A stretch of DNA of 64,000 nt from Bacteroidaceae bacterium (GTDB lineage Bacteria; Bacteroidota; Bacteroidia; Bacteroidales; Bacteroidaceae), in the NCBI GenBank assembly GCA_017416805.1, contig JAFQBB010000008.1:1-64000 (forward strand), given 5' to 3'. Under the pieces are notes generated by a model. The model was not told where the DNA came from. It saw nothing but the letters and a program-made list of their open reading frames with translations, and did not search any database. The position numbers and the translations under genes were made by a program. Numbering within the stretch: position 1 is the stretch's first letter; each line of letters opens with the position of its first letter. Shown one piece after another: positions 9,383 through 50,980 of the stretch.

Positions 9383-9724
9383 AGTATTGATAATAAACTT
9401 AATATTTTTAACTTTTCGACATCAAATAAAATCGAGTGGGAAAGTTTCTTTGCAGATGCCCCCAAATTGTTTCAGAATTTCCAAAATGATATGCTCAGAC
9501 AAAGAGCCGTGGAAAGAAATGTTGAAATCATGGGAGAAGCCATAAATCGAATTTTGAAAGTTTACCCAACGTTTGAACTCCCCAATGCCAAAGCAATAGT
9601 GAACACTCGAAACAGAGTGATACATGGTTATGACAGCGTCACAACTGAATTTCTTTGGAGTCTTATCATAAAGCATATACCTGCACTAAAAAAAGATATT
9701 GAAAAAATATTGGAACTTTATTAG
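9383..9724 (+). pseudogene. HepT-like (DUF86) toxin fragment
   Basis: The open frame, with no good start codon, contains AVERNVEIMGEAINRIL and the RNxxxHxY motif (RNRVIHGY). Both are typical of HepT-family HEPN ribonuclease/toxin proteins. About the last 85 residues look intact, but the N-terminal helices are missing or degenerate (the first in-frame start is TTG at 9467). The usual nucleotidyltransferase antitoxin MntA is not adjacent. Best read as a remnant of a HepT-MntA module; a short active product cannot be excluded. Confidence 0.55.
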
Positions 9725-9760
9725 TGATGAGCTACGAGCTACAAGCTACAAGTGACTGAA
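9723..9760 (+). repeat. Interspersed GAGCTACGAGCTAC repeat, copy 1
   Basis: The run AGTGATGAGCTACGAGCTAC and the following ACAAGCTACAAGTGACTGA match the 21-bp unit amplified inside the ygiQ-like gene (22267-22443), and match an inverted copy at 13721-13765. It directly follows the HepT-like fragment. The bases from here to 9987 show no gene. Confidence 0.7.
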
Positions 9761-13720: not shown

Positions 13721-13765
13721 ACTCGCCACTCGTAGCTTGTAGCTCGTCACTCGTAACTGATTGAA
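13721..13765 (-). repeat. Interspersed GAGCTACGAGCTAC repeat, copy 2 (inverted)
   Basis: Read on the minus strand this is TCAGTTACGAGTGACGAGCT followed by ACAAGCTACGAGTGGCGAGT, the same units as 9723-9760 and the array in the ygiQ-like gene. Nearby, GGAGTTAA recurs at 13786, 13799, 13808 and 13835 (the third copy is partial), and CCCTAAACC-type sequence follows at 13861. The stretch 13576-14049 has no gene; it is low-complexity intergenic repeat DNA. Confidence 0.65.
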
Positions 13766-14000
13766 CCTTGAACCTTAAACCCAAAGGAGTTAAGCTAAGG
13801 AGTTAAAGGAGTTATCACTTCGCTTCGCTCGTTAGGAGTTAAAGCCAATAGTCTTGCAAACCCTAAACCTTAAACCCAACGCTATTACACTTCTTCCACC
13901 CTTTTTTTTGGGGGGGGTGAAGGAGGCTTCATTTGTCCCTAAATCTGTTCTTCAACACATCCATGAAATAATTCATAATTTATAATTCATAATTAATCCC

Positions 14001-17439: not shown

Positions 17440-17550
17440 ATGGTTGAAGGTGTAGGGTTGAAGGTGTAGGGTTTAGGGCTTAGAGTGTAGAGATTAGGAA
17501 TAACAACCCCCAAAACAAAAACCCTAAACCCTAAACATTAAACCCTAAAC
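17440..17550. repeat. Telomere-like GGGTTTAGGG / CCCTAAACCC inverted low-complexity DNA
   Basis: The left half is rich in GTAGGGTTGAAGGTGTAGGG and TTTAGGG units. The right half (17519-17550) has ACCCTAAACCCTAAAC repeated, which can fold back on it. Similar CCCTAAACC sequence occurs at 13860. It lies between the tRNA and the phosphatase start codon. It is an intergenic simple repeat, not evidence of a chromosome end. Confidence 0.6.
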
Positions 17551-18030
17551 ATGAAGAATAAGAAAAAAATACTTTTTATTTGCCTCGGAAACATTTGCCG
17601 CTCATGCACGGCAGAGGAGATTATGCGCCAACTGGTGATTCGCGAAGGATGCGAGAAGGAGTTTGTTCTTGACTCGGCCGGAATATTGAGCTATCATCAA
17701 GGGGAATTGCCTGATAGCCGGATGAGGATGCATGCAGCCCGAAGAGGATATAACCTGACACATCGTTCGCGCCCCGTAACGACAGAAGATTTTTATGATT
17801 TCGACCTGATAGTAGCCATGGACGAACGCAATGTGGATGACTTGCGTGAACGTGCGCCCGGCTTGGAGGAGGAAAAGAAGATTGTACGCATGACGGACTA
17901 CCTGCAAAACCGTGTGGCCGACCATGTGCCCGACCCCTACTACGGAGGAGCATCGGGGTTCGAAAATGTCTTGGACATCCTCGAAGATGCATGCGAAGGG
18001 CTGTTGGCAGAAGTCACCACCGACCGTTAG
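17551..18030 (+). CDS. Low-molecular-weight protein-tyrosine phosphatase
   Basis: 159 residues, normal length for the family. The P-loop CLGNICRS places the nucleophile Cys at residue 11 and the phosphate-binding Arg at 17. The general acid Asp lies in DPYYGG near residue 130, and the DSAG motif follows the first helix. Such enzymes dephosphorylate tyrosine on bacterial proteins, often BY-kinases controlling polysaccharide export, but no kinase gene is adjacent. It lies 113 bp after tRNA-Ser and 70 bp before the amidase-like gene, which has its own -7 box. Confidence 0.92.
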   Translation: MKNKKKILFICLGNICRSCTAEEIMRQLVIREGCEKEFVLDSAGILSYHQGELPDSRMRMHAARRGYNLTHRSRPVTTEDFYDFDLIVAMDERNVDDLRERAPGLEEEKKIVRMTDYLQNRVADHVPDPYYGGASGFENVLDILEDACEGLLAEVTTDR

Positions 18031-21085: not shown

Positions 21086-21140
21086 AAGGATGAAAAGAAT
21101 ATAGAGGACAAATCATAATTCATAAATCATAATTCAACAA

Positions 21141-21443
21141 ATGTACACCATTCAAGCAAACCCCTCGGGAACAAGAAGCATACAGATTTCGGAGAAAGAC
21201 TTGCAAACCATCCGGAAGTACAGCTTCTTCCAGCATCTGATTGACAGCAACGGAATTGTAGATGAAACCGTATTGGAGAAACTCCGTCTGAACATCCGTT
21301 CGCTCATAGCATCGGAGGAGAATGACCGCAAAGAGCTGTTGGACCTTTGCATTGACGTCATCTACCACAAGGATATGAAGGCTTTCGGCCTGCACCAACT
21401 GATTCTGCTCTACCTGAAGTGGGAAGAAGAAGCTGGGGAGTGA
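21141..21443 (+). CDS. Hypothetical protein, 100 residues
   Basis: Starts MYTIQANPSGTRSIQIS. Mostly helical and acidic, no signal peptide or membrane segment. 55 bp after the amidase-like gene and 238 bp before the ygiQ-like gene. I recognise no domain. The composition and codon use are like the neighbouring core genes, which supports it being real. Followed by the 24-bp hairpin array. Confidence 0.6.
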   Translation: MYTIQANPSGTRSIQISEKDLQTIRKYSFFQHLIDSNGIVDETVLEKLRLNIRSLIASEENDRKELLDLCIDVIYHKDMKAFGLHQLILLYLKWEEEAGE

Positions 21444-21528: not shown

Positions 21529-21618
21529 TGAGACACGGGGTCTCATGAGTGGTGAGACACGGGGTCTCATTAATGGTGAGACACGGGGTCTCATTGGTGG
21601 TGAGACACGGGGTCTCAT
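21529..21618. repeat. Four 24-bp tandem repeats, each an 18-bp hairpin
   Basis: TGAGACACGGGGTCTCAT starts at 21529, 21553, 21577 and 21601, exactly 24 bp apart, with variable 6-base spacers (GAGTGG, TAATGG, TGGTGG, TTTGAG). Each copy can form a TGAGAC/GTCTCA stem. The core is identical in all four copies. Spacers are far too short for CRISPR. It lies 63 bp before the ygiQ-like start codon. Confidence 0.85.
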
Positions 21619-21681
21619 TTTGAGGCATCCAACGGATAGGAATCTGGCTCTTGAACTGAAGAAACAAAAAAGAAAGACAGA

Positions 21682-23724
21682 ATGAAGGAATTACAACTGA
21701 CTGATTGGTTACCCACCACACAAAAGGAGATGAAACTGCGTGGGTGGGACGAGGTGGACGTTGTCCTTTTCAGCGGCGACGCATACGTGGACCATCCGTC
21801 GTTTGGTGCTGCCGTAGTGGGGCGTCTGCTCGAAGCGGAAGGATTGCGCGTAGCCATTGTGCCACAACCCAATTGGCGCGACGACCTGCGCGACTTCAAG
21901 AAGATGGGACGCCCACGCCTCTTCTTTGCCATATCAGCCGGATGTATGGACTCGATGGTAAACAAATATACGGCCAACCGGCGCTTGCGGAGCGAAGACG
22001 CCTACACCCCCGACGGACGCCACGACATGCGCCCCGAACGGGCTACCATCGTGTATAGCCGCATATTGCGCGAGCTATACCCTGACACCCCCATCATCCT
22101 TGGCGGCATAGAGGCCTCGCTACGCCGGCTCACCCACTACGACTACTGGCAAGAGGAACTGCAGAAGTGCATCCTGTGCGACAGCGGTGCCGACCTCATC
22201 ATGTATGGCATGGGGGAAAAGCCACTGACAGACCTTTGCCAACGACTGAGACAGGCGGGCGGGACAGCTACGAGTGATGAGCTACGAGTTACGAGTGATG
22301 AGCTACGAGCTACGAGTGATAAGCTACAAGCTACGAGTGATGAGCTACGAGTTACGAGTGGTGAGCTACGAGTTACGAGCGGTGAGCTACGAGTTACGAG
22401 TGATGAGCTACGAGCTACGAGTGATGAGCTACGAGTTACGAGTGAGTGTGGGCGGATGACAAGGAGGAAGCTGCGCCAACTGGTGGCAGACATGCCCCAA
22501 ACGGTGCTTATATATAATAAGGTAGAGGAAGTCCCTGGCGGCATCGGCCAAGAGGATATCGTACTGCATACCCACGAGGAGTGCTTGAGCGACAAGCGGA
22601 AACAGGCCGAAAATTTCCGACACATCGAGGAGGAGAGCAACAAACTGCATGCCCAACGAATCATTCAGCAGGTGGACGGACGTTACACAGTGGTGAATCC
22701 ACCCTATCCGCCTATGACACAGGCCGAACTTGACCATTCGTTTGCCCTCCCTTACACACGCCTCCCCCACCCCAAATACAAAGGCAAGCGCATTCCGGCC
22801 TACGACATGATAAAGTTCTCAGTCAACCTGCACCGGGGATGTTTTGGCGGATGTGCATTCTGTACCATCAGTGCCCATCAGGGCAAATTCATTGTGAGCC
22901 GCAGCAAAGAGAGCATATTGCGCGAAGTGGAAGCCATCACCCGTATGCCCGACTTCAAAGGGTATCTGTCTGACCTTGGAGGCCCCAGTGCCAACATGTA
23001 TGCCATGCAGGGACGGGACCTGTCGCTTTGCCACCAATGCAAACGCCCCTCGTGCATACACCCCAAAATCTGCCCTAACCTGAATACCGACCATCGTCCC
23101 TTACTGGACATATACCGCAGTGTGGATGCCCTTCCCGGCATCAAGAAGAGCTTTATAGGAAGCGGAGTCCGCTACGACTTGTTGCTACACCAAAGCAAGG
23201 ACGAGGCCATCAACCACGCGGCCCGTGAATATACACACGAACTCATTACCCGCCACGTAAGCGGACGCCTGAAAGTGGCTCCCGAACACACCGCACCACG
23301 TGTGCTCAGCCTTATGCGGAAACCTCCTTTCGAACAATTCTACGAGTTCAAACGCATATTCGACCGCATAAACCGCGAAGAGGGACTGAAGCAACAACTC
23401 ATCCCGTACTTCATATCTTCCCACCCCGGATGTACAGAAGAAGATATGGCCGAACTGGCTGCCATTACCAAAGGACTCGACTTCCACCTGGAACAAGTGC
23501 AAGACTTCACTCCCACCCCAATGACCGTCAGTACCGAAGCATGGTACACCGGACTGCATCCCTATACCCTGCAACCCGTATTCTCTGCACGCACACCAAA
23601 CCAGAAACTGGCCCAGCGCATGTACTTCTTCTGGTACAAGCCTGAAGAGCGAAAAAACATCATCGCCGCTCTGCGCCGCATCAACCGTCCGGACCTGATA
23701 CGCAAGCTATATCCGACAAAATAA
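21682..23724 (+). CDS. ygiQ: YgiQ-family radical SAM protein with in-frame repeat insertion
   Basis: 680 residues. The N-terminal UPF0313 region (about 1-190: WDEVDVVLFSGDAYVDHPSFG, ISAGCMDSMVNKYTA, ILGGIEASLRR) leads to the radical SAM core with the 4Fe-4S motif CFGGCAFC. The typical SDLGGPSANMY, KVAPEHT and SSHPGC stretches follow. Function in bacteria is not well defined. Residues 196-254 consist of about 8.4 copies of a heptad such as VTSDELR/ATSDELR, encoded by a 21-bp DNA repeat that also occurs in intergenic DNA in this window. The insertion lies at the end of the N-terminal region, before MTRRKLRQLVADMPQTVLIYNKVEEVPGG. The frame is preserved, so the protein may still be active with a surface loop. 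It converges on mfd with a 6-bp gap. Confidence 0.88.
   Translation: MKELQLTDWLPTTQKEMKLRGWDEVDVVLFSGDAYVDHPSFGAAVVGRLLEAEGLRVAIVPQPNWRDDLRDFKKMGRPRLFFAISAGCMDSMVNKYTANRRLRSEDAYTPDGRHDMRPERATIVYSRILRELYPDTPIILGGIEASLRRLTHYDYWQEELQKCILCDSGADLIMYGMGEKPLTDLCQRLRQAGGTATSDELRVTSDELRATSDKLQATSDELRVTSGELRVTSGELRVTSDELRATSDELRVTSECGRMTRRKLRQLVADMPQTVLIYNKVEEVPGGIGQEDIVLHTHEECLSDKRKQAENFRHIEEESNKLHAQRIIQQVDGRYTVVNPPYPPMTQAELDHSFALPYTRLPHPKYKGKRIPAYDMIKFSVNLHRGCFGGCAFCTISAHQGKFIVSRSKESILREVEAITRMPDFKGYLSDLGGPSANMYAMQGRDLSLCHQCKRPSCIHPKICPNLNTDHRPLLDIYRSVDALPGIKKSFIGSGVRYDLLLHQSKDEAINHAAREYTHELITRHVSGRLKVAPEHTAPRVLSLMRKPPFEQFYEFKRIFDRINREEGLKQQLIPYFISSHPGCTEEDMAELAAITKGLDFHLEQVQDFTPTPMTVSTEAWYTGLHPYTLQPVFSARTPNQKLAQRMYFFWYKPEERKNIIAALRRINRPDLIRKLYPTK
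22267..22443 (+). repeat. 21-bp tandem repeat array inside the ygiQ-like gene
   Basis: Eight full units of the type GCTACGAGTGATGAGCTACG-A plus a partial ninth, with a few substitutions (GTT for GCT, GGT for GAT, AAG and CAA in one unit). The same sequence occurs at 9723-9760 and, inverted, at 13721-13765. The 21-bp unit is a multiple of three, so copy-number changes keep the frame. Confidence 0.9.
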
Positions 23725-49792: not shown

Positions 49793-50710
49793 TCATTTTA
49801 TCTCATTAATATCAAATGGGGTTTCTTGATATACATAGTAGTTCAACCAATTCTGGAAGAACAAGTTAGCATGAGCACGCCAACGAACCAACGGTCCCTT
49901 CAGTGGATCATTGTCACGATAATAATTGACAGGCATATCTATCGGTAAGCCTTTGTCAAGATCACGACGATACTCTGTATCAAGAGTCAGAGGAGAATAC
50001 TCCGAATGACCGGTAACAAAGATTTCTCTTCCACCACGCGCCATCACCATATAAACACCAGATTCATCAGACTCTGATATCAAGTCCAACTCCTTCACTT
50101 TCAATATATCTTCCCGACGTACCTCTGTATGGCGGCTATGCGGAACATAAAAGACATCATCAAATCCACGGAAAATAGGCAACAAAGGATTATTGGTACG
50201 ATGTTCGAAGATGCCGAACATCTTTTTATCCAACTTGTATTTAGGTACTCCATAATGATAATAGAGTCCGGCTTGAGCAGCCCAACATATATATAAGGTA
50301 GAGGTAACATGTGTACGTGCCCAATTGAAGATATCTGAAATCTCATCCCAATAAGCCACATCTTCAAAGTCCATATGTTCCACAGGGGCTCCAGTTATAA
50401 TCATGCCATCAAACTTTTCATTACGCATCAGTTCAAAATCACGATAAAACGCCTTCATATGTTCCACCGGTGTATTCTTTGAAGTATGACTCTTCACCTT
50501 CATGAAGGAGATCTCCAATTGCAACGGGGTATTCGAAAGCAACCGGATAAGATCTGTTTCTGTCGTAATTTTCAACGGCATCAAGTTGAGCACTACAATC
50601 CGCAACGGACGAATGTCCTGCTGAGTGGCACGCGAGTTGTCTATTACAAAAATGTTCTCCTGCTTCAACAGTTCAATAGCAGGCAATTTATCTGGTAAAT
50701 TCAGTGGCAT
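49793..50710 (-). CDS. metA: Homoserine O-acyltransferase MetA, predicted acetyl-CoA-dependent
   Basis: 305 residues, class-I glutamine-amidotransferase-like fold. Nucleophile Cys in YICWAAQAG, His/Glu pair in TGHSEYSPLTL, catalytic Lys/Arg in the NLMPLKITTE region. It activates homoserine at the first committed step of methionine synthesis. Position 111 is Glu (GAPVEHMDF), where E. coli has Gly (GAPLGLVEF); in characterised MetA proteins Glu at this place gives acetyl-CoA instead of succinyl-CoA use. Preceded by two tandem complete promoters. Confidence 0.95.
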   Translation of the reverse strand: MPLNLPDKLPAIELLKQENIFVIDNSRATQQDIRPLRIVVLNLMPLKITTETDLIRLLSNTPLQLEISFMKVKSHTSKNTPVEHMKAFYRDFELMRNEKFDGMIITGAPVEHMDFEDVAYWDEISDIFNWARTHVTSTLYICWAAQAGLYYHYGVPKYKLDKKMFGIFEHRTNNPLLPIFRGFDDVFYVPHSRHTEVRREDILKVKELDLISESDESGVYMVMARGGREIFVTGHSEYSPLTLDTEYRRDLDKGLPIDMPVNYYRDNDPLKGPLVRWRAHANLFFQNWLNYYVYQETPFDINEIK

Positions 50711-50736: not shown

Positions 50737-50768
50737 GCAAAGATAACGCAAACCGAGAGAAGAACAAA
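50737..50768 (-). promoter_or_regulatory. metA promoter, proximal copy
   Basis: Minus strand: -33 TTTG (50768 to 50765) and -7 TATCTTTGC (50745 to 50737), spacing 19 bp; 27 bp before the ATG. Confidence 0.75.
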
Positions 50769-50916
50769 ATAAAAGTATTTATTTTTTCTTCCGAGGTGCA
50801 GCCAATCTTCGTGAAACAAAGATAACGCAAACCGAGAGAAGAACAAAATAAAAGTATTTATTTTTTCTTCCGAGGTCAGCCAATTTTCGTGAAACAAAGA
50901 TTGTTCAAACCGGGAA
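50738..50916. repeat. 79-bp tandem duplication of the metA promoter region (two full copies, one partial)
   Basis: CAAAGATAACGCAAACCGAG starts copies at 50738 and 50817. The two units (79 and 78 bp) are nearly identical, differing by one deletion (AGGTGCAGCC to AGGTCAGCC) and one C/T change. A degenerate third start (CAAAGATTGTTCAAACCG) lies at 50895. Confidence 0.9.
50816..50847 (-). promoter_or_regulatory. metA promoter, distal copy
   Basis: Minus strand: -33 TTTG (50847 to 50844) and -7 TATCTTTGT (50824 to 50816), spacing 19 bp. Same elements as the proximal copy, 79 bp further upstream. Confidence 0.7.
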
Positions 50917-50980
50917 AAAGAGAAAATAAACCTCGCTTATTTTTATCAATAAAGGGCGCTTCAAAATGCCCTCTTCTCAT

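Follow-up and report, generated by a model that had tools for sequence, protein, structure and literature searches.

A heptanucleotide repeat array in frame within the ygiQ-like gene of a Bacteroidaceae bacterium, and its counterparts in other conserved genes of Bacteroidales

Introduction

How does a conserved enzyme come to hold a long run of seven-residue peptide repeats within its chain, and where does the DNA that encodes them come from? The question is raised by a ygiQ-like gene in a 64,000-nucleotide stretch (the window) of the draft genome of a Bacteroidaceae bacterium, here called G000 (64 contigs, completeness 91.34; its ygiQ locus is L031). An initial annotation, made from the window alone, proposed that an intergenic 21-bp repeat had been amplified inside the gene of a conserved radical SAM enzyme without breaking its frame. 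We compared the locus with homologues and with other genomes, and asked how far this reading holds and how general the phenomenon may be.

Results

The ygiQ-like gene (21682..23724, plus strand) encodes a 680-aa protein with a CxxxCxxC motif from residue 387. That the host is a conserved radical SAM enzyme is borne out by its match to TIGR03904 SAM_YgiQ (786.7 bits against a cut-off of 462.35, spanning profile positions 1-556 of 558) and by Pfam matches to Radical_SAM_N, Radical_SAM and DUF3362. We read the gene as intact because it shows the many positions that are invariant in a 33-sequence alignment (its own sequence included), those of the CxxxCxxC motif among them. The tandem array lies at 22269..22445 on the plus strand, in frame within this ORF; Tandem Repeats Finder (TRF) gives a period of 21, 8.4 copies, 92% matches and no indels, although the exact copy number could be off given that it comes from a draft assembly of 64 contigs. 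The 21-bp period and the copy number agree with the initial annotation, but the elementary unit is 7 bp, three to each 21-mer: the consensus is TACGAGT GATGAGC TACGAGY, read as (TSDELRV/A)n, so that the seven-residue peptide repeats of the insert are encoded by tandem DNA units. The consensus contains no GG and hence no quadruplex-type G-run, and the array is not palindromic, with 0 pairs of inverted repeats of at least 10 nt in 22180-22520. Directly upstream of the gene, at 21529-21619, stand 3.8 tandem copies of a different, 24-bp near-palindromic unit (GAGACACGGGGTCTC), which elsewhere in G000 has only seven matches, at C6:50736-50897 (at most 2 mismatches).

Comparison with relatives defines the insertion. 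Five relatives from the same genus (L032, L033, L034, L035 and L037) have a short loop at this place, for example YGMGEKPLTDLCQRLREAG-IKQLSRPALRQLVADMPQTV in L032, and DNA alignment with them shows both flanks conserved and 62 extra codons between, a clean 186-bp insertion at 22261..22446 (plus strand; residues 194-255) that has no counterpart in the five. The figure of about 59 added residues given earlier thus fits the array, which spans about 59 codons, and falls short of the whole insertion. An unsystematic look at this alignment revealed no target duplication. In a tree of 100 YgiQ sequences built with the loop removed, the G000 protein is nested with the insert-free L032, L033 and L034, so that the most parsimonious placement of the insertion is as a gain on the G000 branch. 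No second genome of the same species was present among the genomes searched. TSDELR heptads in homologues from distant genera would have spoken against the proposed entry; they occur in 0 of the 106 other YgiQ proteins read.

The DNA family to which the array belongs is abundant across the genome and mostly intergenic. If up to 3 mismatches are allowed, the 21-mer occurs 10 times in the window, compared with a mean of 0.00 in 100 shuffles; across G000 it occurs 142 times (67 forward, 75 reverse), and its reversed control 0 times, so the repeat is far from absent elsewhere. The two intergenic copies that had been pointed out do exist, at 9719-9739 (plus) and 13735-13755 (minus), but they are loose, with 3 mismatches each. 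They form part of intergenic TACGAGT-family arrays, one in sense orientation at 9719..9757 (plus) and one inverted at 13722..13765 (minus), beyond which period 7 extends to 13781 in the form of a TTGAACC/TAAACC-type heptamer. The window also holds an intergenic array of ATAATTC type at 13968..13994, two facing heptamer-period arrays at 17442-17473 and 17519-17552 (45 nt apart, inverted match score 16), which stand just before the ORF at 17551, and an array of TCATAAT type at 21110..21136, immediately before the ORF at 21141. Together with the five relatives that lack the insert, these data uphold the proposal that a repeat family had entered the gene with the frame kept.

Period 7 dominates the repeat spectrum of G000. 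At a score of at least 12, the window and contigs C46, C3 and C63 (758 kb in all) contain 54 arrays of period 7; periods 8 and 9 account for 10 and 15, and periods 6 and 10 for 4 and 1. When the window and C46 were each subjected to one Markov shuffle, no arrays appeared at periods 4-30. Several other heptamer types coexist in the genome, including GAAGAGT, TATGAAT, ACTAGTG, TAAACCC and TTTACAA. Intragenic counts are approximate since they rest on mechanical ORF calls: 5 of 85 arrays lie inside ORFs by a strict rule (at least 60 nt from both ORF ends), and 21 of 107 by a loose ORF caller. Units are locally homogenised. Among eight TACGAGT-family arrays of at least 3 units, they differ by 1.9 bases per 21-mer within an array and by 3.6 between arrays, a difference that fits growth in place.

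Arrays near genes may also follow a strand polarity, which we do not count among the main supports of our reading. Where classed arrays of G000 lie at most 150 nt from a gene edge, those at 3' ends are 25 sense to 3 antisense and those at 5' starts 3 to 15 (p about 1e-6), a count that depends on two motif classes of our own making, into which 58 of 107 arrays fall. Scored by purine content the polarity is weaker, with p 0.013 in G000 and 0.10 in the Prevotella genome G152. All the facing pairs inside genes that we inspected run sense, then antisense (L048, L066, L087, L094, L130, and the G000 proteins P0002 and that on C45, both described below). We also note an ORF on the minus strand of C56 (L167:1363-2010) that has an array of the TACGAGT family at each end, one forming its upstream end and the other, of TACGAGT type, entered by its C-terminus (SDELQATSD), as if arrays move gene ends. 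A longer repeat, a 79-bp unit present 2.1 to 2.5 times, lies at 50738-50930 in the window, between an ORF ending at 50710 and one starting at 50966.

Other Bacteroidales carry different heptamers in the same YgiQ loop. From 110 loci (L031-L140), three of which yielded no protein (L052, L085 and L093), removal of 7 near-copies left 100 distinct sequences, and 9 of these have a period-7 array (score at least 10) in the loop, of four heptamer kinds: TACGAGT in G000 (L031), AGTGAAG types in L066, L087, L091, L094 and L132, CAATTAT in L097, and GTGGAAA with a facing GATGAAA arm in L048 and L051. No loop array of period 5, 6, 8, 9, 10, 13 or 15 reaches a score of 10, and one of period 11 does. Two further sequences have arrays at other internal sites: GAGAAGT occupies a second site in L130, and CTCAAAC a third in L133, a site that L091 shares with a short array of its own. 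Some assignments were made by hand (to the loop, the L132 array and the second arms of L048 and L051; to the second site, L130), and the internal count leaves out an L135 array in the last ~34 residues, near the C-terminus, and arrays in the stop-to-stop N-terminal extensions of L090, L091, L094, L114 and L133.

The nine loop carriers do not represent nine events, since they share clades in the tree. A single clade of 13 rows (support 99) includes all five AGTGAAG carriers, and in the clade of L048, L051, L062 and L097 (support 100) the L097 heptamer differs from that of the L048/L051 pair. This distribution, read from the sequences and their tree, suggests about three to five independent gains in the loop, probably followed by heptamer turnover. 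A binomial test of loop enrichment was set aside, as it counted related sequences as independent.

Arrays are found inside other conserved genes as well. A ResB-CcsA fusion protein of G000 (P0002; PF05140 and PF01578 matches) has them at two places: within the ResB match, a TACGAGT-type array with a facing AGTGAAG-type array, and before the Cytochrom_C_asm match, a facing TACGAGT-type pair. Four relatives of this protein, L220 (G005), L221 (G012), L223 (G002) and L224 (G011), have GC-rich, palindromic-looking inserts at the first place, such as PSPRGRG...SLPSLGRGK, and other residues at the second; different repeat types therefore seem to share one permissive site. This comparison excludes L225 and L228 (wrong ORF picks) and L222 (which lacks the N-terminal half). 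Also in G000, the PF00703 match of a GH2 protein (C3) contains a TCATAAA-type array. A C32 protein (L244:1121-2803), which we take to be GH43-like, has two heptamer inserts that differ among G000, G005 and G002; G008 and G001 have shorter versions or none. A presumably GH2-like C45 protein (L245:1084-4365) has two tandem facing array pairs.

The 346 kb analysed from Prevotella G152 contain 61 arrays, 17 of them within ORFs. Of the 13 intragenic arrays examined, located in the 10 of 14 ORFs that were scanned, 10 lie inside Pfam matches, namely GH3 (four), cytochrome bd subunit I, ApbE, DUF6298, AAA_12, DUF6057 and Radical_SAM; the other three are in a C25 peptidase, a TPR protein and an ORF without a match. 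These are arrays located inside domain matches; the empty-site comparison was made for ygiQ of G000. One G152 gene, the GH3 glycosidase at L268:9064-11529, holds four separate period-7 arrays, all inside Pfam matches.

The reading strand of intragenic arrays is biased. Among 24 of them (7 in G000, 17 in G152), 21 are free of stops on one strand and not on the other; the open strand is the sense one in 16 cases and the antisense one in 5 (two-sided p 0.027). The test is conditioned on open ORFs, and several of the arrays share one gene. The five exceptions are kept open by units off consensus (for example TTA for TGA, at C2 42457 and C2 49955 of G152) or by shortness. The bias shows a filter, not a mechanism.

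Heptamer content varies widely among genomes. A degenerate form of the 21-mer matches in 27 of 150 genomes, with 364 hits in G000, 130 in G012 and 30 in G011; elsewhere in the genus there are 26 each in G005 and G006, 16 in G002, 12 in G014, 8 in G013, 3 in G007, 1 in G004, and 0 in G001, G003, G008, G009 and G010. The highest counts outside the genus are 34 (G088), 17 (G083) and 16 (G109), and the reversed control gives 0 in G000, 45 in G076, 38 in G030, 28 in G056 and 25 in G088. An AGTGAAG 21-mer has 17 to 195 hits in the eight genomes G150-G157, whose YgiQ loops are AGTGAAG-like or related, and 5 in G158, whose loop is of CAATTAT type; in the comparison genomes G159-G169 it has, in order, 0, 0, 0, 0, 0, 19, 2, 0, 11, 18 and 0. 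In G150-G157 its reversed control has 5 to 111 hits, more than the pattern itself in two of these genomes, G154 (31 to 17) and G157 (111 to 58). The reversed AGTGAAG 21-mer is itself a GAGAAGT-type array, the type in the L130 protein of G157, so this control is not blank, a remark made post hoc. We regard the link between a genome's own heptamer richness and its YgiQ loop insert as weak to moderate.

Period-7 density also differs among genomes. The Bacteroides genome G169 has 1 period-7 segment at score 12 in 320 kb; under a looser rule it has 6 arrays in those 320 kb, G000 has 85 and G152 has 61 in 346 kb. Across 80 YgiQ loci from named records (587 kb), score 10 retrieves 48 period-7 arrays in 23 loci, alongside 11 arrays at period 8 and 17 at period 9.

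Discussion

We consider it probable that the ygiQ insert is a recent, lineage-specific, in-frame heptanucleotide array in a length-variable loop of YgiQ, and that slippage enlarges heptamer arrays, which at times become established in permissive coding loops, the survivors being in frame and free of stops. Intergenic arrays would expand where they stand, often as 21-bp higher-order units, with replication slippage or unequal recombination as the probable means, and would start from a short founder that slippage, recombination or transfer may have seeded. Since 7 and 3 are coprime, the three frames of a pure heptamer array should all spell the same seven-residue cycle; one strand would usually be stop-free, and a pure array that holds a stop would hold one in every frame. 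With such a frame-neutral cycle, a coding array would be tolerated if its total length is divisible by three and it presents a stop-free strand. Survivors should then sit where the protein accepts extra residues, which would explain why the same loop has been hit repeatedly by the heptamers of other Bacteroidales lineages. The array is presumably translated into YgiQ protein, where it is probably near-neutral for the enzyme. The main reading of the initial annotation was right, if too narrow, in that the unit is a heptamer, several genes are affected and other heptamers occupy the loop.

Three other explanations deserve consideration. A mobile palindromic element of REP/RPE type might have transposed into ygiQ, and it is true that palindromic inserts in frame within ORFs are described in the excerpts of PMC3733652 and PMC3767692, and that facing sense and antisense heptamer arms occur in the YgiQ loop of L048, L066 and L094 and facing arrays in ResB-CcsA. 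However, heptamer sequences vary widely within one genome, and no target duplication stood out in our unsystematic look at the alignment. As 22180-22520 has no inverted repeats of at least 10 nt, we rejected a REP/RPE palindrome for the ygiQ array itself, and we rejected mobilisation by a RAYT on the basis of 0 matches to the Y1/RAYT transposase PF01797 in G000 (at 91.34 completeness), a profile whose control was detected in 5 of 14 genomes. Transposition of such an element is, in our judgement, unlikely. An assembly artefact, in which an intergenic array was wrongly joined into ygiQ, would be conceivable in a draft of 64 contigs for an array that belongs to a repeated family, but both flanks are conserved ygiQ, the reading frame is maintained across 186 bp, the units have diverged and similar inserts recur in other, separately deposited genomes, so that we give it hardly any credence.

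The heptads could also be a selected functional protein module, an oligomerisation or spacer helix of the kind found in the H. pylori fucosyltransferase FucT. Residues 7-59 of the insert do match the FucT heptads of 5zoi_A (phmmer E 7.8e-07), and FucT heptad number is known to vary, according to the excerpts of PMC5358919. The host proteins are unrelated, and we rejected homology and read the match as similarity of repeat to repeat. A module of this kind sits poorly with the presence of the same DNA units in intergenic regions on both strands, with the closest YgiQ homologues, which lack it, and with other lineages, which fill the loop with unrelated peptides; we think it improbable, even more so than a transposed palindrome. 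An array that grew as heptanucleotide DNA and was tolerated in a permissive loop thus remains our preferred account.

These results bear on how new protein segments arise. In the literature searched, in-frame entry of repeats into conserved genes is described for palindromic elements such as those of Rickettsia; here the entrant is a frame-neutral heptanucleotide repeat, which offers a testable route from non-coding DNA to protein and natural experiments on loop tolerance. There is also a practical warning: where heptapeptides such as TSDELRV, SSLFTLH or NSQLSI are met again in Bacteroidales proteins that are unrelated, the cause can be repeat DNA and need not be a homologous domain. A bolder possibility, which we put forward tentatively and which is more doubtful than not, is that in heptamer-rich Bacteroidales an active process, independent of sequence, writes arrays between coding blocks, often as facing pairs, including into protein loops, where they would be swapped over time, making them a source of new segments in core enzymes and a class distinct from transposons, REPs and RPEs. 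If this is true, frame-neutral heptapeptides would be a general source of such segments. We found no report of in-frame heptamer arrays entering core enzymes of Bacteroidales in the literature searched, most of it outside subscription journals.

Several known systems resemble parts of this picture. In Rickettsia palindromic elements (RPEs) and intragenic REPs, as in the ygiQ array, repeats lie within ORFs without breaking the frame, and the excerpts of PMC3767692 and PMC3733652 also discuss different elements in the same gene region and insertion hotspots. RPEs and REPs are, however, palindromes of defined sequence (100-150 bp for RPEs, in the excerpts of PMC3767692), whereas the ygiQ array is a direct tandem whose unit differs between lineages. 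The coding palindromes of Nematomorpha mitochondria, with their translated inverted-repeat arms (PMC6649704), recall the facing arms in L094, L066 and ResB-CcsA; they are long, perfect palindromes in conserved mitochondrial gene regions, whereas the arrays here are built of heptamers and lie in variable loops. The H. pylori alpha-1,3-fucosyltransferases FutA and FutB share with the ygiQ insert tandem peptides of seven residues, there of varying number: futB of PMSS1 has 12 heptads, and that of SS1, with a 168-bp deletion, has 4, as reported in the excerpts of PMC5358919. Those heptads are native to that enzyme; in the unrelated YgiQ they occupy an internal loop as a lineage-specific insertion, and the DNA that encodes them is found between genes as well.

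Close parallels are also the heptanucleotide repeats of Xanthomonas, Nostoc and Beggiatoaceae, which like those of G000 are seven-base tandem units, scattered through the genome on both strands and mostly intergenic. An earlier survey of prokaryotic simple repeats (PNAS, 2007) is reported, in the excerpts of PMC4679880 and PMC4692102, to have ranked heptanucleotides first in abundance among the longer simple repeats in most of the genomes covered, and polymerase slippage is proposed for them in the same two excerpts; TAACTGA repeats are described from Beggiatoaceae and some Bacteroidetes in that of PMC4679880. According to the PMC4692102 excerpts, the Xanthomonas GGGAATC and Nostoc GGGGATT repeats lie mostly on the coding strand shortly after stops and on the non-coding strand shortly before starts; G000 appears to follow the trend for classed heptamers and, more weakly, by purine content. 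The heptamers of these two genera can form quadruplexes, whereas TACGAGT has no G-run. What sets the present case apart from the known heptanucleotide systems is the coexistence of many heptamers and the in-frame position of arrays within conserved proteins, where one loop has been used repeatedly.
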